IMG/VR virus record: IMGVR_UViG_3300027608_002862
Coordinates: 1-64,000 of that record
DNA length: 64,000 nucleotides
DNA from: a virus
Direction: 5' to 3' (one strand)
A program made the position numbers and the translations under genes. The notes below the pieces were generated by a model. It made no database searches, was not told where the DNA came from, and was given only the letters and a program-made list of their open reading frames with translations. Of this stretch, positions 5,787-43,777 are shown piece after piece (position 1 is the stretch's first letter; each line of letters begins with the position of its first letter).

Positions 5787-5789
5787 CCT

Positions 5790-16317: not shown

Positions 16318-16323
16318 TATAAT

Positions 16324-16347: not shown

Positions 16348-16375
16348 TAAATACAGATATAAACTAGGATTCGAA

Positions 16376-17884: not shown

Positions 17885-17892
17885 ATAATCGT

Positions 17893-18987: not shown

Positions 18988-19075
18988 TCAATTATCCTTC
19001 AATCTAGATTAAACTCGCCACTTAATTCCCGCCTCCCCCCACGTAAATACTAACAGCAACTACCGGGAGCGAACC

Positions 19076-20769: not shown

Positions 20770-20851
20770 TGAGTCAAGCATTGGAGACAATTTAACAACA
20801 CTAAAAATATGGATGCATTATAAACCTTAACTTGCATCTGGAGCGAATATA

Positions 20852-21523: not shown

Positions 21524-22568
21524 CAGTTGGGCTACTGTTGGTAAAGTTACTGAACAGACCGGACCGACTGAGATAATAAGAGACAAGAAGAGCATATCTT
21601 CTAGCCTTAACACGGCCGTGAAAATGAATGATGCGGTCAGCACAGCCAAGGCCCGGGCAGAGCTGACCTTTGAGGACGCGACCAAAGTAAAACTCACAGA
21701 GCATTCAAAAATGATCATAGATGATTTTGTCTACGATCCCAAGAAAGGTTCTGGCAAATTGGCCATCAACATGGCCTTGGGCACAGCTAGGTATGCCAGT
21801 GGACAAATCGCCAAAAATAATCCTCAGCAGGTGGCAATTAAAACTCCTACGGCTACCATCGCTGTTCGAGGTACAGACTTTTCTATGACCGTAGATGAAC
21901 TAGGGCGCAGCTTGGTCATGCTGCTGCCCAGTTGTGATGCCCGAGGAGGTTGTGTTACTGGAGTAATCGAAGTCAGTAGCCTAGCAGGGGTAGTGGTGTT
22001 AGATGTGCCGTTCCAGGCCACGCTGGTAAACAGCGCCTATCAACGTCCTAGCGACCCTGTGGTAATTAAAATTGATCAGGCTAATATCAACAACATGCTG
22101 ATCATAAGTAAACCACAAGAAATACAAGAAGATGTTCGAGCAGGAATAAACAAGAAAGAAAAAGGATTATTAGATTTCAATTTACTAGATATAGACCTGT
22201 TAAAATATAATGCACTAGAAGAAAACAAATTAGATGACAACAAGGCCTTGGATCGAAACGACCTTAACACTGACCTATTGGCCTACAACGCATTGAACGA
22301 ATTAGACAGACAGAACGCATCATTGCTCAACGATGAACTAGACATACCAGTGTTGCCGGGGTATGCATCTAACAAGTCATTGGGCCTGTTATATTATTTC
22401 AATGACGATCAAAGCAAAGTCACATTGTACAAAGCTGGAACACACAACGCCACTGCCACATTTGATACCACAAAGAATGTTACCTTTACTCTGATACAAG
22501 ACGGCCAGACCATAATACAAAATGTCAATAAAGGAAGTACCAGCACAATAATCGTTACACAGAATTAA
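21465..22568 (+). CDS. FecR-domain secreted protein
   Basis: 367 residues. The ATG at 21465 gives a clear signal peptide ending SWA (residue 23); it lies 59 bases inside the curlin gene in another frame. FecR domain: VGKVTEQTGPTEIIR, FEDATKVKLTEHS, then TPTATIAVRGTDF. The second half has repeated LLDFNLLDIDLLKYNAL-type Leu/Asp-rich units. Outer-membrane FecR-domain proteins often partner with surface fibres. Its position right after the curlin gene suggests an accessory of that system. Confidence 0.78.
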   Translation: MRLLPATVLITTLSLLSPINSWATVGKVTEQTGPTEIIRDKKSISSSLNTAVKMNDAVSTAKARAELTFEDATKVKLTEHSKMIIDDFVYDPKKGSGKLAINMALGTARYASGQIAKNNPQQVAIKTPTATIAVRGTDFSMTVDELGRSLVMLLPSCDARGGCVTGVIEVSSLAGVVVLDVPFQATLVNSAYQRPSDPVVIKIDQANINNMLIISKPQEIQEDVRAGINKKEKGLLDFNLLDIDLLKYNALEENKLDDNKALDRNDLNTDLLAYNALNELDRQNASLLNDELDIPVLPGYASNKSLGLLYYFNDDQSKVTLYKAGTHNATATFDTTKNVTFTLIQDGQTIIQNVNKGSTSTIIVTQN

Positions 22569-22648
22569 CTCAGCATTTTTATTTCAGTGATACCGCTGTA
22601 AATAATTATATCCAACACCTATAACAATAATAAAGTTGGGGAGCGAAA

Positions 22649-24697
22649 ATGAAAAAACAATTAATTGCAACAATAGTTGCCGCTATGCTATCAGCGTCGG
22701 CATTGGCAGGAAATGAAATATTAGTAAATGAATTTATAAAAGCAGGAGTGAATGAGTCCACAGGTACGCTGGGAAGTGGAGGAAACACCAATCCAGGACT
22801 ACAGTACGATAACACTGGTACTGGAACATTTAACTCTGCATACGATTATCTAACACCAGGTTCGCCCTATGAGGGTTGGGCTGTTCGTATAGATAACGCA
22901 GACGGAACGAAGTTCAAGTTATACGGTAACAACAATGCTGGATTCCAAATGGACGGTAACATTCCTGTAACTGGAGCATGGGTTGGCACACCTACTGCGG
23001 CATCTGCGATATGGGCAGGTACCGCAACAGAATTCGGTATTAGACATACCTACAGTTTGCCATCAGCACAGCGTTATTTAGACATCACCACACGTATTGA
23101 GGCTACCGCCGCAATGCCGCATTTGTACTTTGGTCGTTACATTGATCCAGATGCTGTGGCAGCACCTGGCGACAGTTCAGCAACTGACAACGTTCGTGGC
23201 TACGGTATTATTCCAAAGACCAACGTTGTATTCTCAGAAGCAACTGTGAGTCGTTATGCTCTTGGTTTATACTCAGCACAAGTTGGAACTGTTAATACAA
23301 GTATACAAGGTTGGACAAGTGATCCAAAGAACTACTACCTAAATACAAACGGTCGTGCTGATGTTAGCAACGGTGATGACACTATAGGTATTGCATTCTA
23401 TGCAGCCAATGTTGCAGTAGGCGATATCCTAACATACAACTATGCTTACATCTTTGGACCAAGTGCGTTTACTGCGGCCAACTATGCTATAACAGGTGGG
23501 GCTGGCGGCGGCACAGCAGGTACAAGTAGTTTTGGTACACTGGTAGACGTTGGCAGTGCCACTGATGCGGGATCAGGTACTACCACGACTCCAACTATCA
23601 CTGGTACATCAACTGCGACCATTACTGTGAGTGATACCACTGTGGTGAACACAAGCCTTCCAGTCATCACTGCTAGCCTTGCTCACCACGACGCCAGCGA
23701 AGCCAGTGGTAAGCAGACTATTGCTCGCGAGACCACAACCAATGTGACCACGCCATATACACGTTCTGTTGTCACGCTGGTTAGAACCACCAATACATGG
23801 AGTGATGGTACGACTACAACATCCGACAGCGCCACTACAACTAGCGATACGCTGATCAACGATGTGACCACTACTGTAGCCAATGATTCATTCAGCGGTC
23901 GTGTCGACCAAATGTCGTATCTATCTAATTTGAATCAACAATTAGATCGTGGCCTAAACATGGATGCTTTCCGTCAAGACGGTTACACAGATCAAGATAA
24001 AAAAGTCACGGTATATGTGAATGCCAGTGGTGCGAGATCAAACATAGATAATGGTTACAACGCTAAGAGTCAAATCTATGGCCTAGGTGTCGAAAAAGAA
24101 ATCAACCCAAACTGGAGATTAGGTGCTCAATACAATCGTGTGAATACTACCATGGACGGCACAGATTCTAAAACAGCACAAGACAAAAATCACGTTGGTA
24201 TGTTCTCTGTGTATACAGCAGAAAATGATGTTAAGATTGTCAACAACTTAGGTTACTCTAATAATGCAGTCAAAGGCAATCGCACCATAGAAAATGTTTT
24301 TAATAACAGTCATAGTACCAACGGCGAAAATGTTTGGTTGAACAACAGGATCTATGCTCCAGAGACCAATGGATTACGTCCATACGCCGGTGTAACTGTT
24401 GGACGTTCAACTATAGGCGGCTACACAGAAGCAGGTGATATTCAGAGTGCTAGAACTGTGGCTAAAATCGTAGACAACTACACATACGGTGAAGCCGGTG
24501 TACGTTATGAAAAAGCCATCAACAAGTTTCGTTTAATCGGTGACGTCGGCACAACAACAGATTCCGTAACCACAGGTTCAGCCACAGTTGCGTATTCTCC
24601 AACAAAAATCGGCACTATTGCGTTAACAGCAGCGACACAACAAGGTAATAATATCAATACTAACACAATTTCACTTAACGGCATAATTAGATTCTAA
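22649..24697 (+). CDS. Autotransporter-like outer-membrane protein
   Basis: 682 residues. Signal peptide MKKQLIATIVAAMLSASALA. Passenger region (21-280) is Gly/Thr/Asn-rich beta-type sequence, then a Thr/Ser/Val low-complexity linker (about 290-420, TTTTPTITGTSTATITV). The last about 270 residues (from QMSYLSNLNQQLDRGLN) form a barrel ending NTISLNGIIRF, the terminal-Phe signature of autotransporters. SD GGGGAGCGAA. It is encoded directly after the curli-like module and could display an adhesin or shield the surface. Confidence 0.8.
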   Translation: MKKQLIATIVAAMLSASALAGNEILVNEFIKAGVNESTGTLGSGGNTNPGLQYDNTGTGTFNSAYDYLTPGSPYEGWAVRIDNADGTKFKLYGNNNAGFQMDGNIPVTGAWVGTPTAASAIWAGTATEFGIRHTYSLPSAQRYLDITTRIEATAAMPHLYFGRYIDPDAVAAPGDSSATDNVRGYGIIPKTNVVFSEATVSRYALGLYSAQVGTVNTSIQGWTSDPKNYYLNTNGRADVSNGDDTIGIAFYAANVAVGDILTYNYAYIFGPSAFTAANYAITGGAGGGTAGTSSFGTLVDVGSATDAGSGTTTTPTITGTSTATITVSDTTVVNTSLPVITASLAHHDASEASGKQTIARETTTNVTTPYTRSVVTLVRTTNTWSDGTTTTSDSATTTSDTLINDVTTTVANDSFSGRVDQMSYLSNLNQQLDRGLNMDAFRQDGYTDQDKKVTVYVNASGARSNIDNGYNAKSQIYGLGVEKEINPNWRLGAQYNRVNTTMDGTDSKTAQDKNHVGMFSVYTAENDVKIVNNLGYSNNAVKGNRTIENVFNNSHSTNGENVWLNNRIYAPETNGLRPYAGVTVGRSTIGGYTEAGDIQSARTVAKIVDNYTYGEAGVRYEKAINKFRLIGDVGTTTDSVTTGSATVAYSPTKIGTIALTAATQQGNNINTNTISLNGIIRF

Positions 24698-24725
24698 TAA
24701 TAACAATAGGGCATAGCCCACCTAC

Positions 24726-24750
24726 AAAGTCCGCTGCGGCGGACTTTTTT
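24726..24750 (+). terminator. Rho-independent terminator
   Basis: AAGTCCGC / GCGGACTT (24727-24734, 24739-24746), loop TGCG, then TTTT; ends the secreted-protein block. Confidence 0.93.
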
Positions 24751-24777
24751 ATTAAATATAGTTTTAAGGAGTAAGCC

Positions 24778-25113
24778 ATGCGTATATTAGCATTGGCGTT
24801 CCTATTCTGCCTAATTAGCTCTATAGCCGACGCCCAGGAATCAGTACCAGCATTCACAGATACTGTAATGAAGGATACTTCGTTAATTGCGTTAGGTCAG
24901 CAGGTATGGGACAGTCAGTGTCGACATTGCCACGGCAACAGTGCGTATCCCGGCAAGGCGCCCAAACTCAAATCTTCCAGTTACCAACCTGACTTTGTCT
25001 ACGATCGAGTGACCAATGGATTTCGCAAAATGCCTGCTTGGCGAGATATCTTTAACGAAAGGCAGCGTGTTGGTGTAACTGTATACATAATGAGTTCTGA
25101 ATTTTCACCTTGA
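24778..25113 (+). CDS. Periplasmic c-type cytochrome
   Basis: 111 residues. Signal peptide ends near IADA (residue 19). Single heme motif CRHCH (C48, C51, H52) and a likely axial Met85 in RKMPAW give a class I cytochrome c fold of minimal size. It carries electrons in the periplasm. Heme attachment needs the host Ccm machinery. SD AAGGAG. With pqqA in the same phage, a role as electron acceptor for a PQQ enzyme is possible but unproven. Confidence 0.9.
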   Translation: MRILALAFLFCLISSIADAQESVPAFTDTVMKDTSLIALGQQVWDSQCRHCHGNSAYPGKAPKLKSSSYQPDFVYDRVTNGFRKMPAWRDIFNERQRVGVTVYIMSSEFSP

Positions 25114-25157
25114 AATTTCAAATATATTCTGGTAAATATATGTTTAAGGAGCCGGTA

Positions 25158-25451
25158 ATGCGTTCACTGCTACTGGCGTTCCTCGTCTGCTCATCCAGCC
25201 TAGTTAACGCCCAATTTCAATACGATTATCCATTGTTGTGCGACCGCACTGCAAAGATCATACAAAGTCTAGGAGACAACTGGAAAGAAACGCTGACTTG
25301 GAGTGGAAAACACACCAGTGACAACAGTGTTTATAGTCTGTGGGTCAATGAAAAAGAAGGAACATGGACATTATTAAAGATGACATCAGAAGTTTCATGT
25401 ATACTTGGAACGGGCGAGGAATCTAAAATTACACTAGGTACACCTATATAA
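25158..25451 (+). CDS. Small secreted protein
   Basis: 97 residues from the ATG at 25158 (AAGGAGCCGGTA upstream); the earlier start would place the signal peptide internally. Signal peptide MRSLLLAFLVCSSSLVNA is nearly the same as that of the cytochrome gene, and both genes share the leader TAAATATA..TTTAAGGAG, so these upstream parts look duplicated. The mature part holds two Cys and YSLWVNEKEGTWTLLKM; not recognised. Confidence 0.7.
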   Translation: MRSLLLAFLVCSSSLVNAQFQYDYPLLCDRTAKIIQSLGDNWKETLTWSGKHTSDNSVYSLWVNEKEGTWTLLKMTSEVSCILGTGEESKITLGTPI

Positions 25452-25468
25452 ACTAACCAAGGAACACA

Positions 25469-25624
25469 ATGACTGACGACGATTTCAAAAGACATTTACA
25501 CCGCCAACTAGAAGAAGATAAGAAAAACCACGGACAACTGACCAATAGAATATTTGCCAAAGCTAGAACAAAACCCGCAAATAAATACAGTCATGAGAAA
25601 TCAACTAAAAAAAATCCTTACTAA
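25469..25624 (+). CDS. Small charged protein
   Basis: 51 residues, rich in Lys, Asp, His and Arg (MTDDDFKRHLHRQLEEDKKN). AAGGAACACA precedes the ATG. It overlaps the start of the cyclase gene by 32 bases. No family recognised; real-gene status rests on the SD and operon position. Confidence 0.45.
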   Translation: MTDDDFKRHLHRQLEEDKKNHGQLTNRIFAKARTKPANKYSHEKSTKKNPY

Positions 25625-27644
25625 TCCGTGGACAGCACTGCTGACATTGGCACTTATTATAAGTATAAGAATCGCTGATCCTGTCTTTGTAGAGAGCATA
25701 AGACTACGCTACTTTGATACACTGATCACTGCCAAAGAAATCACAGACAACAACATCTATACGGTCAACATAGATGAAAGTGCTTTGGACAAATATGGGC
25801 AATGGCCATTACCGAGAGAAGAGTATGCGAAAATTATTAAAGATCTCTATGATCGCGGCGCTGGCCTTGTTGTGCTTAACATTATCATGGCTGAGCCTGA
25901 TCGTACTGGTGGTGGTGATGTTCTCGCAAATGCTCTAAAAAAGTATCCTGTGATACTAGGGTCAGTGCCTAGTGGAAAAACCAAAAACACGCCACGCAAG
26001 CCGGGTAGTGCAGTTATAGGACCTGAGTGGCAGGATCAAATTGTGCAGTATCCTGGATTAATTGCCAATATATCGAAATTAGAAAACAGCGCAGCGGGCA
26101 TAGGTATTGTTTCAACCCTGCCAGAAGTTGATGGAGTGAATCGGCGCATACCATTAGTGGTCAGTGTCAACGATAATTTGTATCCCAGTCTAAGTTTAGA
26201 AACTCTACGTGCTGCTGCAGGCGATTCTACCTTCCAGATCAAACTAAACGAATACGGTGTTGAGAAAATGCGTATTCCAAAGTTTGGTCCTATCAGCACA
26301 GATCCATTAGGACGTATATGGATTGACTGGAGTCAGCAGAATAAATCAGTGAGTATAACTAACTTGCCTAAAGACTTTGGAGGAGCTGTCGTTATAGTAG
26401 GTCCGACAGCCGCAGGAATCAGTAATCCCTTGCCAACCAGCATAGGCGCAGTGTTCCCGCATGATGTACAGGCCAGTGTGATTGCCACTATGGCAAATGG
26501 AGTGGTTATAGAAAGACCCGACTATGCAGACGGCGTAGAAATTATTGCAATTCTAGCTGCGGGATTATTATTATTGTTTTTAACGAGGTGGGTATATGCG
26601 GGACTTGCGAGTGTTATCATTATATGTATTGGCGTGGTCTTTGGCAGTCACTACGCTTTCTCTAATTTTCTATTCTTATTTGATGCTACTGCCATTCTTG
26701 TTGGCACAGTCTTGGTCGCTTTGCATGCCTATGGTGTCAAGTTTGTAAGCGAGTTCTTACAGAAGCAGGCCATTAAGAAACAGTTTGAGGGATATGCCAG
26801 TCCCACAGTGGTCAAACTCTTGCAGGAAAATCCAGACATTATCAAGAACGGAACCAAGCGTGAAGTATCTATAGTGTTTTCCGACCTACGTGGCTTTACC
26901 CCTCTCGGTGAAAGTTTTGGAGATGATGTCAAAGGACTAACAGCAGTGATGAATGGTTACATGGATGCCATCACTCAGCCTGTGTTAGATGCTGATGGTA
27001 TGATCATCAAATATATTGGTGATGCCAGCATGCACATCCATAACGCACCTATAGATGATCCTCACCACGCCAAGACCGCAGTGGCCACTGGACTCAAGAT
27101 GTTGAAGGCTGTAAAAGAATTCAGCATCAAGTTAGAAGCCACAGGACGTCCAGGAGTCAAAATGGGCGCAGGTATCAATACTGGTCTAGGTTATATAGGA
27201 GAGATGGGATCAACTCGACGCCATTCGTATGATGTCTTAGGTGATGCAGTTTCCACAGCCGCACGTATTGAAAGCAAATGCAAAGAATACGGGTGTGTGC
27301 TATTAGTCGGCGGTGCCACAGTAGAACAGTGTGGTGATGATTTCTTCTTCCTAAAAGTAGATGACCTAGCAGTCAAGGGCAAGACAGTAGGGGTAGCTAT
27401 TTACACAGTGTTGGACGATGTCGCTGCTGACTATCACGTGTCTAAGAAAATACACAATGCCATGCATGGTGCATACAGATCACAGAATTTCAGCACAGCG
27501 ATTAGCATGTGCAAACAGCTGAGAGATCAATTCGACGGTAGATTAACTGGCTATTATGATATGTGGATAGAGCGATGTGAGTTCCAATTGACACAGAAAT
27601 TACCTGCAGATTGGAATGGTGTTTTTATAGCTACCAGCAAATAG
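25593..27644 (+). CDS. CHASE2-domain class III nucleotidyl cyclase
   Basis: 683 residues from the ATG at 25593 (a longer form lacks an SD). One N-terminal membrane segment, a periplasmic CHASE2 domain (about 25-300; VNIDESALDKYGQWPLPREEYAK, then NIIMAEPDRTGGGDV), three membrane segments (about 305-385), then a class III cyclase catalytic domain with VFSDLRGFTPLGE (metal Asp), KYIGDASMHIHNAP and DVLGDAVSTAARIE. It would make cAMP or cGMP in response to an envelope signal. Such a receptor is unusual in a phage. Confidence 0.9.
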   Translation: MRNQLKKILTNPWTALLTLALIISIRIADPVFVESIRLRYFDTLITAKEITDNNIYTVNIDESALDKYGQWPLPREEYAKIIKDLYDRGAGLVVLNIIMAEPDRTGGGDVLANALKKYPVILGSVPSGKTKNTPRKPGSAVIGPEWQDQIVQYPGLIANISKLENSAAGIGIVSTLPEVDGVNRRIPLVVSVNDNLYPSLSLETLRAAAGDSTFQIKLNEYGVEKMRIPKFGPISTDPLGRIWIDWSQQNKSVSITNLPKDFGGAVVIVGPTAAGISNPLPTSIGAVFPHDVQASVIATMANGVVIERPDYADGVEIIAILAAGLLLLFLTRWVYAGLASVIIICIGVVFGSHYAFSNFLFLFDATAILVGTVLVALHAYGVKFVSEFLQKQAIKKQFEGYASPTVVKLLQENPDIIKNGTKREVSIVFSDLRGFTPLGESFGDDVKGLTAVMNGYMDAITQPVLDADGMIIKYIGDASMHIHNAPIDDPHHAKTAVATGLKMLKAVKEFSIKLEATGRPGVKMGAGINTGLGYIGEMGSTRRHSYDVLGDAVSTAARIESKCKEYGCVLLVGGATVEQCGDDFFFLKVDDLAVKGKTVGVAIYTVLDDVAADYHVSKKIHNAMHGAYRSQNFSTAISMCKQLRDQFDGRLTGYYDMWIERCEFQLTQKLPADWNGVFIATSK

Positions 27645-36738: not shown

Positions 36739-36814
36739 GCCTCGTTCATATAACGGTCTATTATGCCCGCCTGTCTAGCGGAACACAGGGGTTCGACTCC
36801 CCTACGAGGCGCCA
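36739..36814 (+). tRNA. tRNA-Asp(GTC)
   Basis: Acceptor GCCTCGT/ACGAGGC, anticodon loop CTGTCTA, T-loop TTCGACT, CCA encoded. Confidence 0.93.
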
Positions 36815-36820
36815 GTTTAT

Positions 36821-36896
36821 TCCCCAGTAGCACAGCGGTAGTTGCACTTGACTGTTAATCAAGGTGTCCGTGGTTCGATCCCACGCTGGGGAGCCA
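36821..36896 (+). tRNA. tRNA-Asn(GTT)
   Basis: Acceptor TCCCCAG/CTGGGGA, anticodon stem-loop CTTGA CTGTTAA TCAAG, CCA encoded. Confidence 0.96.
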
Positions 36897-36903
36897 ATAT
36901 TAT

Positions 36904-36978
36904 GCACGGTTCGTCTATCGGTTAGGACGCTGCCCTTTCAAGGCGGAAAGACGAGTTCGATTCTCGTACCGTGTACCA
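36904..36978 (+). tRNA. tRNA-Glu(TTC)
   Basis: Acceptor GCACGGT/ACCGTGT, anticodon loop CTTTCAA, T-loop TTCGATT, CCA encoded. Confidence 0.95.
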
Positions 36979-36984
36979 TATAAT

Positions 36985-37058
36985 GCGGGTATGATGTAAT
37001 GGTAACCTGAAACCTTGCCAAGGTTTATTCGCGAGTTCGATTCTCGCTACCCGCTCCA
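36985..37058 (+). tRNA. tRNA-Gly(GCC)
   Basis: Acceptor GCGGGTA/TACCCGC, anticodon loop TTGCCAA, CCA encoded. Confidence 0.95.
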
Positions 37059-37063
37059 AGAAT

Positions 37064-37137
37064 TACTCACTGATGTAATGGCAGCATGACAGTCTCCAAA
37101 ACTGTTCGTCGGGGTTCGAGTCCCTGGTGGGTAGCCA
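37064..37137 (+). tRNA. tRNA-Trp(CCA)
   Basis: Acceptor TACTCAC/GTGGGTA, anticodon stem-loop ACAGT CTCCAAA ACTGT, CCA encoded. Confidence 0.95.
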
Positions 37138-37143
37138 ATCTAT

Positions 37144-37221
37144 AGTGCGGTGGCAGAGAGGTCCAATGCAAGAGTCTGCAAAACTCTAAAACCGTGAGTT
37201 CAAATCTCACCCGCACTTCCA
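37144..37221 (+). tRNA. tRNA-Cys(GCA)
   Basis: Acceptor AGTGCGG/CCGCACT, anticodon stem-loop AGAGT CTGCAAA ACTCT, T-loop TTCAAAT, CCA encoded. Confidence 0.95.
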
Positions 37222-37226
37222 ATAAT

Positions 37227-37318
37227 GCCAGCGAGACTTGGTAGTCAGAGAGGTTTTATAAACCTTTTAGCGCCAGATTAGCGTTCTTGAGAGGGTTCGA
37301 TTCCCTCCGCTGGTACCA
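37227..37318 (+). tRNA. Class II tRNA with anticodon TAT (identity uncertain)
   Basis: Acceptor GCCAGCG/CGCTGGT, T-arm GAGGG TTCGATT CCCTC and a 24-base variable region with its own stem (GCGC/GCGT). Stem GAGGT/ACCTT leaves a 7-base loop TTTATAA, so the anticodon reads TAT (Ile, AUA). Long variable arms normally mark Leu, Ser or Tyr, which makes this pairing odd. Confidence 0.75.
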
Positions 37319-37324
37319 CGTAAT

Positions 37325-37405
37325 GCCCCTGTGGCCAAATTGGTAAAGGCAGCTCTCTCAAAAGGAGTGTTATGTATCCCGGTTCGAGTCCGGGCAGGGG
37401 TACCA
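37325..37405 (+). tRNA. tRNA-Leu(CAA)
   Basis: Acceptor GCCCCTG/CAGGGGT, anticodon loop CTCAAAA. The variable region is short (9 bases) for Leu; the D-arm resembles that of phage T4 tRNA-Leu. CCA encoded. Confidence 0.88.
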
Positions 37406-37413
37406 AAGTTTAT

Positions 37414-37503
37414 GGAAGTGTGGCAGAGTCCGGTTTATTGCACCTGTCTTGAAAACAGACGGCTCGAAAGGGTCCGTGAGTTCGAATCTCACCGCTTCCA
37501 CCA
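37414..37503 (+). tRNA. tRNA-Ser(TGA)
   Basis: Acceptor GGAAGTG/CGCTTCC, anticodon stem-loop CTGT CTTGAAA ACAG, long variable arm, CCA encoded. Confidence 0.95.
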
Positions 37504-37507
37504 ATTT

Positions 37508-37581
37508 TCCCGGATAGTTAAATGGTATAACAATCGGCTGATAACCGGTCATTACAAGTTCGATTCTTGTTCTGGGAACCA
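37508..37581 (+). tRNA. tRNA-Ile(GAT)
   Basis: Acceptor TCCCGGA/TCTGGGA, anticodon stem-loop TCGG CTGATAA CCGG, CCA encoded. Confidence 0.93.
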
Positions 37582-37681
37582 AGTTTAGTATAGCAACAGC
37601 AAAAATCCAATTTCACTTTTAATGAAAAAAGATGCTATCCTGTTTTATTAAACTCCAGTAGCCTAATCATTTAAATAAACA

Positions 37682-39139
37682 ATGCATAAATGTTTATTAT
37701 TCAATGTTTCAACTAACCAGTTAGGAAGGAATTTAGGTGTATACAGAATAGCACACTATCTTAGAGAACATGATTGGGACTCTGAGGTTATCGATTATAC
37801 TTTATATTGGACTTTAGATGAGTTAAAAGAACTGTCTAGATCAAGAATCGATAAAGACACAAAATTTATAGGATTTGGTCACATGTTTTCGGTGTGGAGT
37901 GTAGAATTAGAAAACTTTACAGAATGGTTGAAGATTGAGTATCCTGGGGTTGTTTTAATATCAGGCTCAGGAGTTGCTCCACAGTTCAAATCAAAGTGTA
38001 TAGATTATTACATTCAAGGTTTCGGCGAAAACGCTTTGTTAGTTTTGCTAAAATGGCTTTTTAGCAACGGAGAACTTCCAAAGTTTTCTATTTTCAATAA
38101 AAAGTTAATCAACGGAAATGAAATGTATCCTTCGTTTCCAATGAAAAGTTTAATGGTAAAGTATCAAGACCGGGACTACATTAGTCCCGACGAGTGGTTA
38201 GGAATTGAGTTTGCTCGAGGCTGTAAGTTTAGATGTGCATTTTGTAACTTTCCTGTACTAGGTGTAAAAGGAGATTACAGCAGAGATGCATTAGATTACT
38301 ACATACAAGTTATGGATGCCTATGATAGGTTTGGAGTTACTAACTACTATGTATCCGACGAAACATTTAATGATCGAACAGAAAAAATAACCAAATTTGC
38401 TGATGTAACACAACTATTGCCATTTCGTCCTTGGTTTAGTGGGTTTATTAGGGCAGACTTAATGATAGCTAGAAAAGAAGAAAAAGAAGAATTAGCTAGA
38501 TTAGGATTTCTTGGTCACCATTATGGTATAGAAAGTTTTAACAAAGAGTCAGTTAAAGTTATCGGTAAGGGCATGGACCCTGACAGGATAAAAGCAGGAT
38601 TGATAGATAGTAAAAACTATTTTATGAACCGGGGATTGTACCGGGGAAATATAAGTTTTATTATAGGTCTACCAGGGGATACTGTAGAACAAATAGAAAG
38701 AACAATTGACTGGTTAAAAGAAAACTGGCGAGGACAATCATTTCTTCCATTTGTTTTAGAAATACCAGCGGGAGAGTTTGACACACAATCTAAAATTAGT
38801 ATAGACTATAAAAAATATGGTTATACCGTGATGGATGATGCGATCATACGATCTAACGAGGACCAGGATGCTAAGGTTGCTTCTACAGTATTACATTGGC
38901 AAAACAAGTTTATGAATATAAATCAAGCAACGGATCTACAAGAAAAAATGTGGCGTGAGCTGTTTAAGAAAGAAAATGGTTTTACATTTAACTGTTGGGC
39001 TCTTGCATCGATAGGGATTGACGGTGGTCTAATCAACAGACTAAATGAAACTGCTAAATTCAGCCAGGGTGACCTTGCGGTTGCACTGCCAAAAATACAA
39101 TCTTACAAAGATAAAAAGTTAAGTACTCAGAAATATTAA
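37682..39139 (+). CDS. B12-binding-type radical-SAM protein
   Basis: 485 residues. N-terminal part (1-140) has a cobalamin-binding-like alpha/beta layout without a clear DxHxxG. Radical-SAM cluster CKFRCAFC (C181, C185, C188), then GHHYGIESFN and IGLPGDTVEQIE typical of the barrel end. It cleaves SAM to start radical chemistry; substrate unknown. It interrupts the tRNA array, is more AT-rich than its surroundings, and is a paralogue of the gene at the left window edge, suggesting insertion as a mobile cargo gene. Confidence 0.88.
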   Translation: MHKCLLFNVSTNQLGRNLGVYRIAHYLREHDWDSEVIDYTLYWTLDELKELSRSRIDKDTKFIGFGHMFSVWSVELENFTEWLKIEYPGVVLISGSGVAPQFKSKCIDYYIQGFGENALLVLLKWLFSNGELPKFSIFNKKLINGNEMYPSFPMKSLMVKYQDRDYISPDEWLGIEFARGCKFRCAFCNFPVLGVKGDYSRDALDYYIQVMDAYDRFGVTNYYVSDETFNDRTEKITKFADVTQLLPFRPWFSGFIRADLMIARKEEKEELARLGFLGHHYGIESFNKESVKVIGKGMDPDRIKAGLIDSKNYFMNRGLYRGNISFIIGLPGDTVEQIERTIDWLKENWRGQSFLPFVLEIPAGEFDTQSKISIDYKKYGYTVMDDAIIRSNEDQDAKVASTVLHWQNKFMNINQATDLQEKMWRELFKKENGFTFNCWALASIGIDGGLINRLNETAKFSQGDLAVALPKIQSYKDKKLSTQKY

Positions 39140-39234
39140 CAACGGAGAATGACATGAAACGAGGTAAACTCTAGTGTCATCCTAGACCCCGTATGGTCCT
39201 GGATGGCACGTAAAAGAAAATATTTACGATCCAT

Positions 39235-39309
39235 CCCTTCGTGGCGCAATGGTAGCGCAACGGACTCTTAATCCGCTGGTTGGCAGTTCAAGTCTGCCCG
39301 GAGGGACCA
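39235..39309 (+). tRNA. tRNA-Lys(CTT)
   Basis: Acceptor CCCTTCG/CGGAGGG, anticodon stem-loop CGGA CTCTTAA TCCG, CCA encoded. A strong hairpin GTGTCATCC / GGATGGCAC precedes it (about 39172-39210). Confidence 0.95.
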
Positions 39310-39312
39310 TAT

Positions 39313-39387
39313 GGGGGTATAATTCAAAGGCTAGAATAGCCGGCTTTTAACCGGTCTATCAGGGTTCGAGTCCCTGTGCCCCTACCA
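39313..39387 (+). tRNA. tRNA-Lys(TTT)
   Basis: Acceptor GGGGGTA/TGCCCCT, anticodon stem-loop CCGG CTTTTAA CCGG, CCA encoded; only 3 bases from the previous tRNA. Confidence 0.95.
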
Positions 39388-39445
39388 TATAAAAACACAT
39401 TACTAAGAGTCCAGGTTCAGAGCGTGGCATAGTGTGTTTCTATAT

Positions 39446-39520
39446 GGTAATGTAGCATAACGGTAGTGCAACACCTTCATACGGTGCCCAGTGAAAGTTC
39501 GACTCTTTCCATTACCACCA
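39446..39520 (+). tRNA. tRNA-Met or tRNA-Ile2 (CAT)
   Basis: Acceptor GGTAATG/CATTACC with a normal 1-72 pair, so not an initiator. Anticodon stem-loop CACC TTCATAC GGTG. Elongator Met versus lysidine-modified Ile cannot be settled by eye. CCA encoded. Confidence 0.93.
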
Positions 39521-39526
39521 AAATTT

Positions 39527-39601
39527 GGGGGAAGCCGAGGACGGCGGTGGGTCCTTGCAAGACTCATGACTACAAGGGTTCGATACCCTGGTCCTCCACC
39601 A
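39527..39601 (+). tRNA. tRNA-Ala(TGC), copy 1
   Basis: Acceptor GGGGGAA/GTCCTCC with G3·U70, the Ala identity pair; last pair A-G mismatched. Anticodon stem-loop GGGTC CTTGCAA GACTC. CCA encoded. Confidence 0.9.
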
Positions 39602-39606
39602 ATTAT

Positions 39607-39682
39607 CTCTCTAAAGTGTTATCTGGTTGCATCCGCGGTTTGGGGCCGTGTGGTCTAGGTTCGAATCCTAGTAGGGAGACCA
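39607..39682 (+). tRNA. tRNA-Pro(TGG)
   Basis: Acceptor CTCTCTA/TAGGGAG, anticodon stem-loop CGCGG TTTGGGG CCGTG, CCA encoded. Confidence 0.93.
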
Positions 39683-39690
39683 GTTTCTGT

Positions 39691-39764
39691 TCGGGAATAG
39701 TGTAATGGTAACACTACAGACTTTGACTCTGTCATTCTAGGTTCGAGCCCTAGTTCCCGTGCCA
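39691..39764 (+). tRNA. tRNA-Gln(TTG)
   Basis: Acceptor TCGGGAA/TTCCCGT with an open 1-72 position, common for Gln; anticodon stem-loop CAGA CTTTGAC TCTG, CCA encoded. Confidence 0.93.
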
Positions 39765-39771
39765 ACTTTAT

Positions 39772-39846
39772 CGGGCTTTGGTGAAATGGATATCATTACG
39801 GTCTTCGAAACCGCAGGTAGAGGTTCGATTCCTCTAAGCCCGGCCA
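39772..39846 (+). tRNA. tRNA-Arg(TCG)
   Basis: Acceptor CGGGCTT/AAGCCCG, anticodon stem-loop ACGGT CTTCGAA ACCGC, CCA encoded. Confidence 0.95.
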
Positions 39847-39863
39847 TATTAAAGGAGATCAGC

Positions 39864-40067
39864 ATGAAACCTATTATATTTCGAAATCGTCTAAACAACG
39901 AGCGAGTTATCTGCGAGAACATTCGCAATGTAGAAAGAATAGACGACGTTGAATATCTAGTTGTTCATCGTCCTGAAAATTCTAGAATGTTTCTTATGCG
40001 TAAGGATGTGTTGGAAAAAGATACCACTGTAGTGAAAGGGATATCACGAAACTTTGCGAAAGTTTAA
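39864..40067 (+). CDS. Small phage protein within the tRNA array
   Basis: 67 residues from the ATG at 39864 with AAAGGAGATC ahead; a longer form would run through the tRNA-Arg gene. IIFRNRLNNERVICENIRNVERIDDVEYLVVHRP reads as a small beta-barrel. I recall similar short proteins in T4-like phages but no function. Confidence 0.75.
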   Translation: MKPIIFRNRLNNERVICENIRNVERIDDVEYLVVHRPENSRMFLMRKDVLEKDTTVVKGISRNFAKV

Positions 40068-40068
40068 G

Positions 40069-40097
40069 TTCACGTTCGACTCGTGGCGGTGGTGCCA
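40069..40097 (+). pseudogene. tRNA 3'-half remnant
   Basis: CACG TTCGACT CGTG forms a T-arm followed about 10 bases later by CCA, but no D or anticodon arm lies upstream, where the preceding gene ends. Looks like a decayed tRNA or tRNA 3' end left by rearrangement. Confidence 0.5.
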
Positions 40098-40103
40098 GTC
40101 AAT

Positions 40104-40178
40104 GGAGTCTGTGATGTAATGGTAGCATCCGAGATTGTGATTCTCGTCGCGTGGGTTCGATTCCCATCATTCTCCCCA
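40104..40178 (+). tRNA. tRNA-His(GTG)
   Basis: Anticodon stem-loop CGAGA TTGTGAT TCTCG. An extra 5' G (40104) faces discriminator C40175, the His identity pair. Two acceptor-stem mismatches (positions 4 and 5). CCA encoded. Confidence 0.88.
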
Positions 40179-40188
40179 AGGAATTATT

Positions 40189-40596
40189 ATGGAAAAAATA
40201 AAAACATTAAACACATTAAAAGGTTCTGTTCGAGAGTTCGATGAACTACTAGGACGAACATTATACAAGGCAGAAGCAGATGACGAAACACTAACTTTGT
40301 ATCTGTCAAAGACAAACTATGTACGATTCCAACATCATCAAAACTGTTGTGAAAGTGTTTACATAGAAGACATCTGTGGGGATCTTGAAGACCTAGTCGG
40401 AGCACCATTAATAGAAGCTGAAGAAGTTTCTAACTATGAAGCTGGGCCACTAAATGAATACGAAGAATCATACACATGGACATTCTATCGTTTTCGTACA
40501 CGAAAAGGTAGTGTAACAGTTCGATGGTATGGTTCCAGTAATGGATACTATTCCGAAGATGTTAGTGTAGAGGTAGTTGACACTACTGTGGACTAA
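40189..40596 (+). CDS. Phage protein within the tRNA array
   Basis: 135 residues, SD AAGGAATT. Beta-rich, with KTNYVRFQHHQNCCESVYIEDICGDLEDLVG and a later FYRFRTRKGSVTVRWYGSSNGYYSEDV. This layout (DUF7448-like) is one I associate with small phage proteins. Its stop directly abuts the tRNA-Phe gene. Function unknown. Confidence 0.75.
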   Translation: MEKIKTLNTLKGSVREFDELLGRTLYKAEADDETLTLYLSKTNYVRFQHHQNCCESVYIEDICGDLEDLVGAPLIEAEEVSNYEAGPLNEYEESYTWTFYRFRTRKGSVTVRWYGSSNGYYSEDVSVEVVDTTVD

Positions 40597-40672
40597 GCTG
40601 CTTTAGCTGATGTGGTCATAGCAACGGATTGAAAATCCGAGGAACCCTGTTCGATCCGGGGAGGCAGCACCA
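40597..40672 (+). tRNA. tRNA-Phe(GAA)
   Basis: Acceptor GCTGCTT/AGGCAGC, anticodon stem-loop CGGA TTGAAAA TCCG, CCA encoded; starts on the base after the upstream stop codon. Confidence 0.94.
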
Positions 40673-40677
40673 AGAAT

Positions 40678-40761
40678 GCGAGTGTGGAGAAATGGCATAC
40701 TCAGGAGATTTAAAATCTCCCGTCTTAGGGCATGAGGGTTCGAGTCCCTCCACTCGCACCA
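40678..40761 (+). tRNA. tRNA-Leu(TAA)
   Basis: Acceptor GCGAGTG/CACTCGC, anticodon stem-loop GGAGA TTTAAAA TCTCC, CCA encoded. Confidence 0.96.
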
Positions 40762-40769
40762 AAAAACTC

Positions 40770-40798
40770 TTGACAAGAGTCTAAAATTGTCGTATAAT
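40770..40798 (+). promoter_or_regulatory. Sigma-70-type promoter inside the tRNA array
   Basis: TTGACA 40770-40775, 17-base spacer, TATAAT 40793-40798: full consensus, 15 bases before tRNA-Leu(TAG). Confidence 0.92.
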
Positions 40799-40812
40799 AG
40801 TTGATGTGTTAG

Positions 40813-40893
40813 GCCCCTGTGGTGGAATTGGTAGACACGCTGGTCTTAGAAGCCAGTCTTCGGGTGCGAGTTCGAGTCTCGCTGGGGGCACCA
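40813..40893 (+). tRNA. tRNA-Leu(TAG)
   Basis: Acceptor GCCCCTG/TGGGGGC, anticodon stem-loop CTGGT CTTAGAA GCCAG, CCA encoded. Confidence 0.95.
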
Positions 40894-41055
40894 TTAAAAA
40901 ATAGCATTAGCGGGTATCGTCTATGGACGCATAGACTTATGAAGAATAGGGCCATCTTACTCTTCTGAAACAACCGTGGACAATGGCTGATGAGGAGAAT
41001 CGAACTCCACTCAGAAATCCGTCTCATCCCATAGGGTGTAATGTTATTTTTTAAT
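40893..41055 (+). ncRNA. Candidate structured RNA closed by a 17-bp stem, with reverse-strand tRNA-like half
   Basis: ATTAAAAAATAGCATTA (40893-40909) pairs along its whole length with TAATGTTATTTTTTAAT (41039-41055), one wobble only. Inside are TCTATG/CATAGA (loop GACG, about 40920-40935), GAAGA/TCTTC (about 40941-40965) and GATGAG/CTCATC (about 40989-41028). Read on the reverse strand the inner part shows a T-arm with loop TTCGATT, an acceptor-like stem and AGCCA. It lies between two tRNA genes under a consensus promoter. No known RNA class recognised. Confidence 0.6.
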
Positions 41056-41061
41056 GGTTAT

Positions 41062-41135
41062 GCCTCGTTAATTTAATGGTAGAATGCCCTCCTTACAAGT
41101 GGGATACGGCAGTTCGATTCTGTCACGAGGTACCA
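41062..41135 (+). tRNA. tRNA-Val(TAC)
   Basis: Acceptor GCCTCGT/ACGAGGT, anticodon stem-loop CCCTC CTTACAA GTGGG with one T-T mismatch, CCA encoded. Confidence 0.9.
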
Positions 41136-41142
41136 GTAATAC

Positions 41143-41232
41143 GGAAGACTCCCATAATGGTATTGGAGCGGTTTGCTAAACCGTCGGTCGCTTTAAAACG
41201 TCTTCGGGGTTCGAGTCCCCGGTCTTCCGCCA
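41143..41232 (+). tRNA. tRNA-Ser(GCT)
   Basis: Acceptor GGAAGAC/GTCTTCC, anticodon stem-loop GCGGT TTGCTAA ACCGT, long variable arm, CCA encoded. Confidence 0.95.
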
Positions 41233-41254
41233 ATTTTTTTTAAAAAGGAAATAT

Positions 41255-41434
41255 ATGAAACCAGGTCCAAATTATAGAATGAGTTCGCTGCTAAAAATCA
41301 GTTTAGCCACAGGCAAGTTCAAAGATGCACATCAAAAGGGGCAGTGGAAACGTGCTATGATTGACGCTGAACTATGTGCAGCCATACAACCTAAACGTGA
41401 AAAAGGTCGCAAGCCCGACACAGGCAAACAATAA
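41255..41434 (+). CDS. Small basic phage protein
   Basis: 59 residues, AAAAAGGAA upstream. MKPGPNYRMSSLLKISLATGKF then a Lys/Arg-rich end (PKREKGRKPDTGKQ). Possibly nucleic-acid binding. It sits between tRNA-Ser and tRNA-Ala. Not recognised. Confidence 0.6.
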   Translation: MKPGPNYRMSSLLKISLATGKFKDAHQKGQWKRAMIDAELCAAIQPKREKGRKPDTGKQ

Positions 41435-41440
41435 AATTCC

Positions 41441-41514
41441 GGGGGATTAGTTAAATGGGATAACATCGGCTTTGCAAGTCGAGATTGAGAGTTCGATTCT
41501 CTCATCCTCCACCA
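41441..41514 (+). tRNA. tRNA-Ala(TGC), copy 2
   Basis: Acceptor GGGGGAT/ATCCTCC with G3·U70, anticodon stem-loop TCGGC TTTGCAA GTCGA, CCA encoded. Same anticodon as the 39527 gene but clearly different in body sequence. Confidence 0.95.
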
Positions 41515-41531
41515 GAGATATATACTATAAG

Positions 41532-41605
41532 GCCCTGTTAGTTAAGTGGTATAACACCTGTTTTGTAATCAGGGGTTGGCAGTTCGATTCTGTCACGGGG
41601 CACCA
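41532..41605 (+). tRNA. tRNA-Thr(TGT)
   Basis: Acceptor GCCCTGT/ACGGGGC, anticodon arm CCTGT TTTGTAA TCAGG with a T-T closing mismatch, CCA encoded. Confidence 0.9.
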
Positions 41606-41621
41606 ATTTTACCAATAAGTG

Positions 41622-41650
41622 TTGACAAACACCCTAGACCATGTTATAAT
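41622..41650 (+). promoter_or_regulatory. Sigma-70-type promoter
   Basis: TTGACA 41622-41627, 17-base spacer, TATAAT 41645-41650: full consensus. It gives a leader of about 285 bases before the next ATG. Confidence 0.92.
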
Positions 41651-41656
41651 TGTTTT

Positions 41657-41942
41657 GTTGCGTTAGAAATAACGTGACCGGTGAAGCGAAGGGTAGAAGA
41701 GGATAGACAAATAGGTTTAGGCTACAATCCTAATCCGAACTTACAATCCAACCTTGAAAATTGGAACGTGTTTATGTGATCCGATCTCTAATAGAATGTC
41801 ATTTGTTAATCGGAAATATATGGACCTCTGTGTATTGTTATTTGCACATTGTCAACGAAGATTACAACCCTTCATTGTCCATTGTCCGGTCTATTACTTG
41901 ACCTTTCGTCGATCCGTCATTGTTGTTTGAAAAAGGAAAAAA
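41657..41942 (+). promoter_or_regulatory. Long structured 5' leader
   Basis: No gene is seen. The leader starts with a CGTTA/TAACG hairpin closed by a GAAA tetraloop (about 41663-41676) and later shows CCGAT/ATCGG (about 41782-41814). It ends with AAAAAGGAAAAAA before the ATG at 41943. It could be a cis-regulatory RNA or an independent small RNA; not a riboswitch class I recognise. Confidence 0.45.
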
Positions 41943-42518
41943 ATGAATATCACACTGAGAAAAGCAAATGCTGTGCAGAACAGCATCACAGAAGCAATTA
42001 AGAACATCAAAATTGATCTCACTGTTGAGATCAATGAGTTCCAATCAGTCGAGGACGTTATCACCAAAGCCAATAGTGTCTTGGTAGAAAATGACGGTCG
42101 CCGTCAGAAGCTTACCATGGCTCTGTACAATATCCGTGCCCTAGTAGGCACAGCTAACAGCGCCAGCGGTATCGACACTGCTTTGGCCAAAGCAGCTTTT
42201 ATAGATAAGCGTATAGGTCAGCTAGAAGAATTGGCCAAGGCCACAGAGATCACTGCACTAGATGTGATCAAAGGCAAGTTGGACAAGATCCGCAACGACA
42301 AGAGCGAATCTACTCGCAGTCGTATCTACGGCTACAGTGACACAGTGACCACAGGGGTGCTGGGATTAGAACAGATTGCACAGGCCAAAGCAGAAGTGTT
42401 GAGTCTGAAAAAACAGAAACAAAAGATCAATGACGAGGTGTTAGAACTTAACATCAAAACAGAGATACCTCTTTCAGAAGATGTAGTGGCTGTATTGCAA
42501 GCTGAAGCCTTGATTTAA
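41943..42518 (+). CDS. Helical phage protein, unknown function
   Basis: 191 residues, almost all predicted helix: MNITLRKANAVQNSITEAI, a middle with KAAFIDKRIGQLEELAKA and a coiled-coil end (QAKAEVLSLKKQKQKINDEVLELNIKT). Strong promoter and long leader imply high or regulated expression. I recall similarly built proteins in T4-like phages without known function. Confidence 0.7.
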   Translation: MNITLRKANAVQNSITEAIKNIKIDLTVEINEFQSVEDVITKANSVLVENDGRRQKLTMALYNIRALVGTANSASGIDTALAKAAFIDKRIGQLEELAKATEITALDVIKGKLDKIRNDKSESTRSRIYGYSDTVTTGVLGLEQIAQAKAEVLSLKKQKQKINDEVLELNIKTEIPLSEDVVAVLQAEALI

Positions 42519-42524
42519 AACTAT

Positions 42525-42598
42525 CGCGGGATAGAGAAACGGTATCTCGAGAGTCTCATAAGCTCTAGTTCCTGGTTCGATTCCGGGTCCCGCAACCA
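42525..42598 (+). tRNA. tRNA-fMet(CAT), initiator-type
   Basis: Acceptor CGCGGGA/TCCCGCA with a C1·A72 mismatch, the formylation mark of bacterial initiator tRNA. Anticodon loop CTCATAA as in fMet. The three G-C pairs usual in the initiator anticodon stem are absent (AGAGT/GCTCT). CCA encoded. Confidence 0.88.
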
Positions 42599-42612
42599 AC
42601 TATAAGGTATGT

Positions 42613-42840
42613 ATGAAAAACAAAACACTAAGTCGTGGTCCTGAAATTGACACAGAAAAATGTGTGGAAAATGTAGGCGGTAATAGATTCGACTTGGTGC
42701 TGATAGCATCAGCTCGTGCCAGAGAGCTCAGTCGCAGACACAAAGCAGCTGAACTACAGACTCAGATGAACGCACCTGTTGGCGCACTGTTAGATGTGCA
42801 GTCAGGTGCTGTAGGTCGAGAATACCTTAAAAAAGTCTGA
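42613..42840 (+). CDS. rpoZ: RNA polymerase omega subunit homologue
   Basis: 75 residues. IDTEKCVENVGGNRFDLVLIASARARELSRRHKAAE matches the omega core, where NRFxLVxxAxxRARxL is the conserved helix wrapping the beta' C-terminus; then a second helix as in bacterial RpoZ. No strong SD (AAGGTATGT). It could replace host omega and alter polymerase assembly or promoter choice. It lies between initiator tRNA and tRNA-Arg. Confidence 0.87.
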   Translation: MKNKTLSRGPEIDTEKCVENVGGNRFDLVLIASARARELSRRHKAAELQTQMNAPVGALLDVQSGAVGREYLKKV

Positions 42841-42843
42841 TTG

Positions 42844-42918
42844 CTCGCTGTGGTTCAATGGATAGAACAAGTTCCTCCTAAGAATTAGATCCAGGTTCGA
42901 TTCCTGGCAGTGAGGCCA
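42844..42918 (+). tRNA. tRNA-Arg(CCT)
   Basis: Acceptor CTCGCTG/CAGTGAG, anticodon stem-loop AGTTC CTCCTAA GAATT, CCA encoded. Confidence 0.93.
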
Positions 42919-42936
42919 ATGAGTAAATAAATCTAT

Positions 42937-43010
42937 GCGGGGTTCGTATAGTGGTAATACCTTAGCCTTCCAAGCTAAAGCGGAGAGTTCGATTCTCTTA
43001 CCCCGCTCCA
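42937..43010 (+). tRNA. tRNA-Gly(TCC)
   Basis: Acceptor GCGGGGT/ACCCCGC, anticodon stem-loop TTAGC CTTCCAA GCTAA, CCA encoded. Confidence 0.96.
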
Positions 43011-43016
43011 AATAAT

Positions 43017-43592
43017 ATGTTGAAAGTTATAGATCATAATCCTCAGGCTTGCAAATACGATTTCTCATCTCTAATAACCAAACAGGATGATCTCGCAGCC
43101 TGTGAGATTATCAAAGGCATCATTGCCGACGGTAACTATTTTACCAATTCACCTAAGTTCCAGACCAAAGAAAACATCTTTGCTAGATCGGAGGCTGTAT
43201 GGTTAAAGTACCGTGTGAGTTTTATGATGAGTGTATTCATGTATCTAGGCCGTGAAGCCAAAATATCTAACATGATGGCCTGGAGTTTTATGACCAATCT
43301 CGAGGGTGCCGAAAACCGTGATAATCTCTGGCATCATCATTGGCATCCTACTACCCCTACCGCACAAATACTCAGTGGTATTTGGTATCTACACATACCC
43401 GAGGATGTTAAAGATCGAGACTATTGCGGTACAGAGATGGCACCAGAGGGTCCACAATCTGATGACAGATATTTTGTGCGCCCCACAGACGGTAATTGGT
43501 TGATCTATCCCGGCAACATGTGGCACCGCCCCGGCATCGTACAGAGCCTTCAATACAGATTTGTATTAGCCGCAGACATTCAAATAGACTAA
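43017..43592 (+). CDS. 2OG-Fe(II) oxygenase (putative, phage type)
   Basis: 191 residues. WHHHWHPTTPTAQILSGIWYLHIPED gives the first metal ligands and strand, and GNWLIYPGNMWHRPGIVQSLQYRFVLAADI gives the second His and the 2OG-binding Arg, the pattern of the Tpa1/PF13759-like oxygenases common in marine phages. Substrate unknown. No clear SD; it starts 6 bases after tRNA-Gly. Confidence 0.75.
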   Translation: MLKVIDHNPQACKYDFSSLITKQDDLAACEIIKGIIADGNYFTNSPKFQTKENIFARSEAVWLKYRVSFMMSVFMYLGREAKISNMMAWSFMTNLEGAENRDNLWHHHWHPTTPTAQILSGIWYLHIPEDVKDRDYCGTEMAPEGPQSDDRYFVRPTDGNWLIYPGNMWHRPGIVQSLQYRFVLAADIQID

Positions 43593-43594
43593 AC

Positions 43595-43669
43595 TGGCCA
43601 TAGTATAATGGATAATACAGCGAGCTTCTACCTCGCGAATGTGGGTTCGATTCCTGCTGGCCGGACCAC
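43595..43669 (+). tRNA. tRNA-Arg(TCT)
   Basis: Acceptor CTGGCCA/TGGCCGG, anticodon stem-loop GCGAG CTTCTAC CTCGC, CCA encoded. It begins 2 bases after the upstream stop codon. Confidence 0.95.
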
Positions 43670-43673
43670 GCCG

Positions 43674-43747
43674 CTCTCATAGTATAAAAGCATTACACTA
43701 CATTGGTAATGTAGAAACGGTGGAGCATTACCACCTGAGAGCACCAC
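43674..43747 (+). tRNA. tRNA-Thr(GGT)-like RNA with non-canonical D- and T-loops
   Basis: Seven-pair perfect acceptor GCTCTCA/TGAGAGC, discriminator A and encoded CCA; anticodon arm CTACA TTGGTAA TGTAG (GGT, Thr); T-arm GGTGG AGCATTA CCACC. Total length 74, exactly that of a class I tRNA. But the T-loop is AGCATTA, not TTCRANY, and the D region (TAGTATAAAAGCATTACA) lacks GG, so the usual elbow contact cannot form. It may be a divergent tRNA or a mimic. Confidence 0.7.
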
Positions 43748-43748
43748 T

Positions 43749-43777
43749 TGACACACAGCGATAGTGATTGTATAATA
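43749..43777 (+). promoter_or_regulatory. Sigma-70-type promoter
   Basis: TTGACA 43749-43754, 17-base spacer, TATAAT 43772-43777: full consensus; the ATG is at 43804. Confidence 0.92.

Follow-up and report, generated by a model that had tools for sequence, protein, structure and literature searches.

A conserved viral tRNA-Thr(GGU) with a probable alternative D-loop/T-loop elbow

The tRNA-Thr(GGT) gene and its surroundings

The window, the whole stretch of 64,000 nucleotides analysed here, corresponds to bases 1-64000 of a 68,060-base IMG/VR virus record and carries an intact class I tRNA-Thr(GGU) gene with an encoded CCA at 43673-43746 on the plus strand, one base upstream of the position (43674-43747) given in an earlier note on this DNA. 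The 5' strand of its acceptor stem (GCTCTCA, 43673-43679) forms 7 bp with TGAGAGC at 43736-43742. The D arm that follows (43680-43697, 18 nt) contains U8 and A14, and same-length alignment with canonical relatives places A18 at 43689 and G19 at 43690, replacing G18 G19; its loop, AAAAGCA, lacks GG. The anticodon arm (43698-43714) consists of a 5-bp stem, CTACA/TGTAG, and the loop TTGGTAA, with U33, A37, and the anticodon GGT at 43705-43707, and is followed by a variable loop of 4 nt. The T arm (43719-43735) has a 5-bp stem, GGTGG/CCACC, and the loop AGCATTA, with A54, G55, C56, A57, U58, U59, and A60 at 43724-43730. The discriminator A73 and the encoded CCA occupy 43743-43746. Reading the gene in this way bears out the unusual T-loop and the D-loop without GG that had been reported earlier. 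We also observe A15 with C48, which is not a standard Levitt pair but is the commonest combination (114 of 165) in the A54-U58 subclass of tRNAs described below.

ARAGORN lists 29 tRNA genes and a tmRNA in the window and misses this one, whereas the Rfam model RF00005 scores it at 51.1 bits, against a gathering cut-off of 29. The suspicion that the gene is invisible to standard finders is thus justified for ARAGORN and not for a covariance model. The RNA folds with z = -4.4, and none of 200 shuffled sequences is equally stable; the predicted minimum departs from the cloverleaf by pairing part of the D region with the anticodon arm, and the case for the cloverleaf is therefore comparative and not energetic.

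Four nucleotides upstream lies an ordinary tRNA-Arg(TCT) gene (43594-43668, plus strand), which is probably on the same transcript. A promoter-like sequence, TTGACA-17 bp-TATAAT (43748-43776, plus strand), begins 2 nt past the CCA and probably serves the next gene; both hexamers are also seen in the 11-contig alignment described below. The other tRNA-Thr gene of the window (TGT, 41532-41605, plus strand) has a canonical elbow. Counting tRNA-Thr(GGT), the window holds 30 tRNA genes, a very large set for a phage, spread over 36739-43746. One of the 29 listed by ARAGORN, a 92-nt "tRNA-Ile(TAT)" at 37227-37318, has the length of a class II tRNA and may be a tRNA-Tyr, the only amino acid otherwise missing from the set. 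The tmRNA gene (4132-4577) is supported by ARAGORN and by the permuted tmRNA and betaproteobacterial tmRNA models of Rfam. Several host-like genes lie at 13922-27644, namely Hsp70, a heme oxygenase adjoining a bilin reductase, CsgG with a curlin-repeat protein, and a CHASE2-adenylate cyclase.

Conservation, stem covariation, and coupling of positions 18 and 55

The ten closest relatives of the window were chosen by the gene upstream of the tRNA, which encodes a 2OG-oxygenase whose protein they share with the window at 88-95% identity. Over these 11 contigs, none of the 71 columns of the tRNA body varies, whereas 179 of the 576 columns of the 2OG-oxygenase gene and, in the spacer downstream of the tRNA, 27 of 57 columns do. 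Two further contigs, found by pattern (L405 and L407), share the same body, which is therefore identical in 12 viral contigs besides the window. One relative, L128, has a CCG end instead of CCA and additionally carries a canonical Thr(GGT) tRNA. At 69-77% protein identity, the relatives carry a canonical tRNA-Thr(GGT), with GG and the T-loop TTCGATT, in the same place, directly after the 2OG gene, as in L132, L153, and L172. The intact arms, the Rfam score, and the invariant body agree with the reading of the earlier note as a non-canonical tRNA-Thr(GGT)-like RNA, and show it to be genuine and conserved.

More distant relatives were sought by pattern in the viral collection. A pattern with open spacing, combining the GGT loop with AGCATTA, gave mostly chance matches and was abandoned, with 2 tRNAs passing the filters in 119 loci (996,409 bases). 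A scan for tRNA-framed AGCRTTA T loops that placed no constraint on stems, anticodon, or positions 16-20 returned at least 119 loci, and most of the matches listed are intact tRNAs of the alternative-elbow type, belonging to many isotypes. A Thr(GGT) pattern demanding A18 G19 gave 32 stretches, which together with the window amount to 19 distinct Thr(GGT) sequences. Homologues with these loops retained, which the earlier note proposed to look for, do exist. In the gap-free alignment of these sequences, 98.7% of the 380 stem cells are paired, 17 of the 20 pairs have changed on both sides, and the covariation score is reached by none of 500 shuffles. The stems do drift, which had been named as a sign against the RNA, yet they drift with compensation. 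U33 and A37 are invariant, the GGT anticodon and U33 being part of the search pattern. The GGU anticodon, G1-C72, and C2-G71 are identity elements of tRNA-Thr, and all three are invariant in the 19 rows, the anticodon having been a search criterion.

Most of the Thr(GGT) relatives sit in gene neighbourhoods other than that of the window. Among 29 loci, 8 match the flanking genes of the window at about 89-94% protein identity and one (L400) shows a weak peptidase match, and 20 have no match on the fetched stretch. The sequence AGCATTAC is present twice in the window gene, at 43689-43696 and 43724-43731, an observation already made for the D region and the T-loop. Both copies occur in only 4 of the 19 distinct relatives (the window, L414, L406, and L402), so the repeat is incidental and a functional duplication was dropped.

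Compared position by position with its canonical relatives, the D arm of the window tRNA has A18 G19 for G18 G19, and its T-loop has G55 C56. The same two positions vary together in other tRNAs. In a set of 485 distinct tRNAs whose D arm has 18 nt, drawn from loci fetched before the genome scan and with no selection for A18 G19, the residues at 18 and 55 are G and T in 343, A and G in 134, and other combinations in 8. When all D-arm lengths are included, 1017 tRNAs (and 30 ambiguous ones) have GG with T55, 223 have AG with G55, and 35 fall in other classes. The G55 tRNAs occur in 37 anticodon classes, in 34 of which AG is found. Positions 54 and 58 also differ between the two sets, being TA in 365 and AT in 18 of 391 T55 tRNAs, and AT in 165, TA in 88, and GG in 26 of 286 G55 tRNAs, counts that include genome hits chosen by a pattern requiring A18 G19. 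The 54/58 pair is partly independent of 18/55, and TA, AT, GG, and CA are all seen. The G19-C56 pair is kept in 279 of the 286 G55 tRNAs, including that of the window (G at 43690, C at 43726); among the 286, seven tRNAs combine G18 with C19 and one carries C18.

The claim that the elbow cannot form normally is not supported by these data. G19 and C56 are retained, and hundreds of tRNAs show joint changes at 18/55 and 54/58, which we take as the sign of an elbow that has been rebuilt. According to the available text of PMC4810234, residue 18 of a canonical tRNA intercalates in the T loop and pairs with Psi55, G19-C56 being the exposed outer pair. The simplest reading of the aligned sequences is that A18 occupies the same slot and faces G55. 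ARAGORN recovers 48 of the 141 tRNAs with A54, G55, and U58, compared to 1287 of the 1290 with U54, U55, and A58.

Alternative-elbow tRNAs in SAR11 and in RNA-repair islands

One genome per species, for 84,980 species, was scanned with a pattern demanding A18 G19, AGCRTTA, and A73. Of the 75 stretches obtained, at least two (L334 and L367) are chance matches and the others are alternative-elbow tRNAs; Thr(GGT) is not seen among the 75. With these matches in bacterial genomes, the view that the trait is confined to phages was given up. The loci comprise 13 from SAR11 and 14 from other alphaproteobacteria, with Val(GAC), 39 from Verrucomicrobia, with several isotypes, and a few others.

One SAR11 genome, G001, has 28 RF00005 matches, 27 of them above the cut-off. 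The A18-G55 elbow is present in its tRNA-Phe(GAA) and tRNA-Val(GAC), and a canonical version of either tRNA is not seen among the matches read, which leave aside six of class II size. Pattern matches in 60 SAR11-family genomes assign the alternative tRNA-Phe to 20, the canonical one to 29, both to none, and neither to 11, and for Val(GAC) the alternative form to 3, the canonical one to 27, and both to none; the counts are not independent observations, since the genomes are related to one another and in part incomplete. Thus, in part of SAR11 the housekeeping tRNA-Phe has been replaced by an A18-G55 form. As tRNA-Phe is indispensable, no other observation argues as strongly for the elbow working in ordinary translation. 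The alternative tRNA-Phe of SAR11 combines G55 with U54-A58, and thereby supports A18-G55 and not the A54-U58 turn; the alternative tRNA-Val shows the A54-U58 turn, as in the window. Another genome of the family, G043 (L438 and L441), has a canonical tRNA-Phe and an alternative tRNA-Val(GAC), which indicates that the Phe and Val switches are independent.

In genome G002, from the Verrucomicrobia, contig C125 carries an array of 14 anticodons, every one of them on G55 tRNAs, alongside genes for RtcB (E 8.7e-86), HNH, and TROVE/Ro60; those for RtcB and TROVE are the sole matches of their kind in the genome. The 30 scattered tRNAs read elsewhere in G002 are all T55, nine anticodons being common to both sets. 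Relatives of RtcB, HNH, or Ro60 lie on the fetched stretch of 23 of the 39 Verrucomicrobia loci, of none of the 13 SAR11 and 14 other alphaproteobacterial loci, and of 16 of the 119 viral loci listed (mainly HNH); they are found in none of 199 comparison loci, which are viral and hence not a matched control. In many genome loci the arrays are nearly all G55, whereas mixed arrays are common among the 119 viral loci listed, which total 752 T55 and 254 G55 tRNAs. In the verrucomicrobial locus L434, the RtcB, HNH, and Ro60 (TROVE) genes (4590-9055) are flanked by an array of tRNAs that all have the alternative elbow, and a match to a nematode sRNA family of Rfam at 9113-9183 may be a Y-RNA-like or tRNA-like piece.

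The alternative class is present in none of the 11 isolate or named phage regions examined (Kaldavass, CBB, DSS3_MAL1, RcXuper, RpAliso, MD18, DLP_6, Moab, LR745206, StAB, and Alone3); searches among named phages gave short partial matches. The 11 regions hold 119 T55 tRNAs and one G55 candidate, in CBB, which lies inside a coding gene and looks like a chance match. In two of them, those of Streptomyces phages Moab (L449) and Alone3 (L452), genes for a Ro-like RNA-binding protein and an RNA ligase lie among canonical tRNA arrays.

Probable decoding role and possible reasons for the alternative elbow

The window gene very probably encodes a functional decoding tRNA-Thr(GGU) in which an alternative D-loop/T-loop elbow is equivalent to the usual one, a conclusion drawn from sequence comparison. 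A18 against G55 would replace G18-Psi55, G19-C56 would be kept, and the reverse-Hoogsteen pair U54-A58 would be turned round to A54-U58, with A60. Since there is a uridine at neither 54 nor 55, the tRNA can carry neither m5U54 nor Psi55. It would be expressed, charged with threonine, and used during infection to read ACU and ACC, as a member of the decoding set that the phage itself encodes. The 47 ORFs analysed in the window contain 288 ACT, 177 ACC, 321 ACA, and 58 ACG codons, so that 465 of the 844 Thr codons (ACU and ACC) suit the GGU anticodon. The tRNA probably belongs to a spare set, most likely standing in for a host pool that has been depleted or damaged. PMC7824862 presents phage tRNAs as possible replacements for host tRNAs that have been cleaved, and it records RtcB and TROVE in jumbo phages.

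Readings that deny the tRNA a decoding role fare poorly. A decaying pseudogene would explain the departure from near-universal residues, but an unvarying body beside drifting flanks in the 11 contigs in effect refutes this, and we give it almost no credence. A non-decoding decoy or regulatory mimic of tRNA, as the earlier note suggested, would fit the unusual loops and the CCG end of L128; it gains no support, however, and is very improbable, given an intact anticodon arm, an encoded CCA, compensated stems, and the occurrence of the same 18-55 elbow in many anticodon classes and, in 20 SAR11-family genomes, in the sole tRNA-Phe that was found there. More serious is the proposal that compensatory change has led to a structurally equivalent elbow that is neutral and serves nothing beyond ordinary decoding. 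The clean swap of a housekeeping tRNA-Phe between related SAR11 genomes, the mixed viral arrays, and the existence of 54-58 variants both with and without G55 all argue for it, whereas it predicts neither the strict division in G002 between scattered canonical tRNAs and an array made up wholly of alternative ones, nor the many genome loci whose arrays are almost entirely G55; on balance we consider it a real possibility, somewhat short of an even chance.

Enzymes that recognise or cut the canonical T54-Psi55-C56/G18-G19 elbow might instead be the reason for keeping the alternative one; by escaping them, these tRNAs would be damage-proof spares in phages and bacterial RNA-repair islands. Such escape would add a reason to the decoding role proposed above and would not replace it. 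It would account for the G002 split, in which the all-G55 array accompanies the only RtcB and TROVE/Ro60 genes, and for the repair-type genes in most of the Verrucomicrobia loci. A toxin that cuts in the T-loop exists, CdiA-CT of strain E479, which according to the available part of PMC9086364 cuts tRNA2-Arg between the conserved T and Psi, and the window tRNA, with A54 and G55, lacks such a site. A supernumerary tRNA array connected with RtcB, as in the Verrucomicrobia islands, is also described for Anabaena, where, in the excerpt available of PMC10272220, the trn operon is silent until induced by translational stress and shares its repressor with rtcB. Against escape stand the SAR11 and other alphaproteobacterial loci, which have no such repair genes on the fetched stretch, the SAR11 elbow being a housekeeping one; Moab and Alone3, which have both repair genes and tRNA arrays but only canonical elbows; and the window itself, where Pfam detects no RtcB or Ro60 in the 30 ORFs to which it was applied. 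Protection from tRNA-cutting enzymes, already suggested in the earlier note as nuclease resistance, is plausible and draws indirect support from the RNA-repair islands, but as the reason for the elbow being kept we regard it as doubtful. Equally tentative is a broader hypothesis, in which A18-G55 with A54-U58, U54-A58, or G54-G58 would form a second elbow code marking the reserve tRNAs of phages and RtcB-Ro60 islands; such tRNAs would withstand enzymes directed at the universal elbow and bypass Psi55 (and often T54) modification, with a housekeeping takeover in part of SAR11.

In accounts of tRNA, the G18-Psi55/G19-C56 elbow passes for near-universal, and the alternative elbow appears to be an overlooked working version of this structure. 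With canonical elongator tRNAs (G18-Psi55, G19-C56, U54-A58), as presented in the available text of PMC4810234 and PMC7912444, the window tRNA has in common the cloverleaf and its lengths, U8, A14, U33, G53-C61, G19, C56, and R57, and it differs in A18, G55, A54, U58, and A60 and in having no uridine for m5U54 or Psi55. The eukaryotic initiator tRNA likewise has A54, in an A54-A58 pair (PMC7912444, in part); the window tRNA differs by U58, by G55 with A18, and by its GGU anticodon, and is not an initiator. tRNA-Pyl and some mitochondrial tRNAs also lack GG and TPsiC, but, from what is available of PMC7609411, they lose G19-C56 or shrink their loops, whereas the window tRNA keeps both and its 18-55 pair covaries. 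The available text of this 2020 review of non-canonical tRNAs does not mention the A18/G55 class, and a full-text literature search of partial coverage found no description of it. Phage tRNAs that evade anticodon nucleases are described in the available part of PMC10264068; like the window tRNA they are phage-borne and out of the ordinary, but their changes are in the anticodon loop, whereas that of the window is in the elbow and any evasion by it is hypothetical.

Staphylococcal cell-wall tRNA-Gly and laboratory-selected suppressor tRNAs have non-standard D/T loops in an otherwise normal tRNA. In comparison, the A18-G55 class is natural, extends over many anticodon classes, and represents one fixed, coupled solution; given the laboratory-selected tRNAs with altered D/T contacts, the principle may already have come to light in vitro. 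A naturally occurring elbow with two contacts changed jointly, present in 37 anticodon classes and in the only tRNA-Phe found in part of SAR11, a family of very common ocean bacteria, would change the supposed requirements for the elbow and would explain why tRNA genes are missed, as with the low recovery by ARAGORN. The separation in G002 of scattered ordinary tRNAs from an all-alternative array next to the RtcB and Ro60 genes hints that the change of elbow has a biological cause. The T loop also varies on its own: three relatives of the window phage (L141, L184, and L187) have tRNAs with ATCGTTA, ATCGTTC, or ATCGATA T loops, many of which keep a GG D loop and have thus changed 54, 58, and 60 without a change of 18-55.
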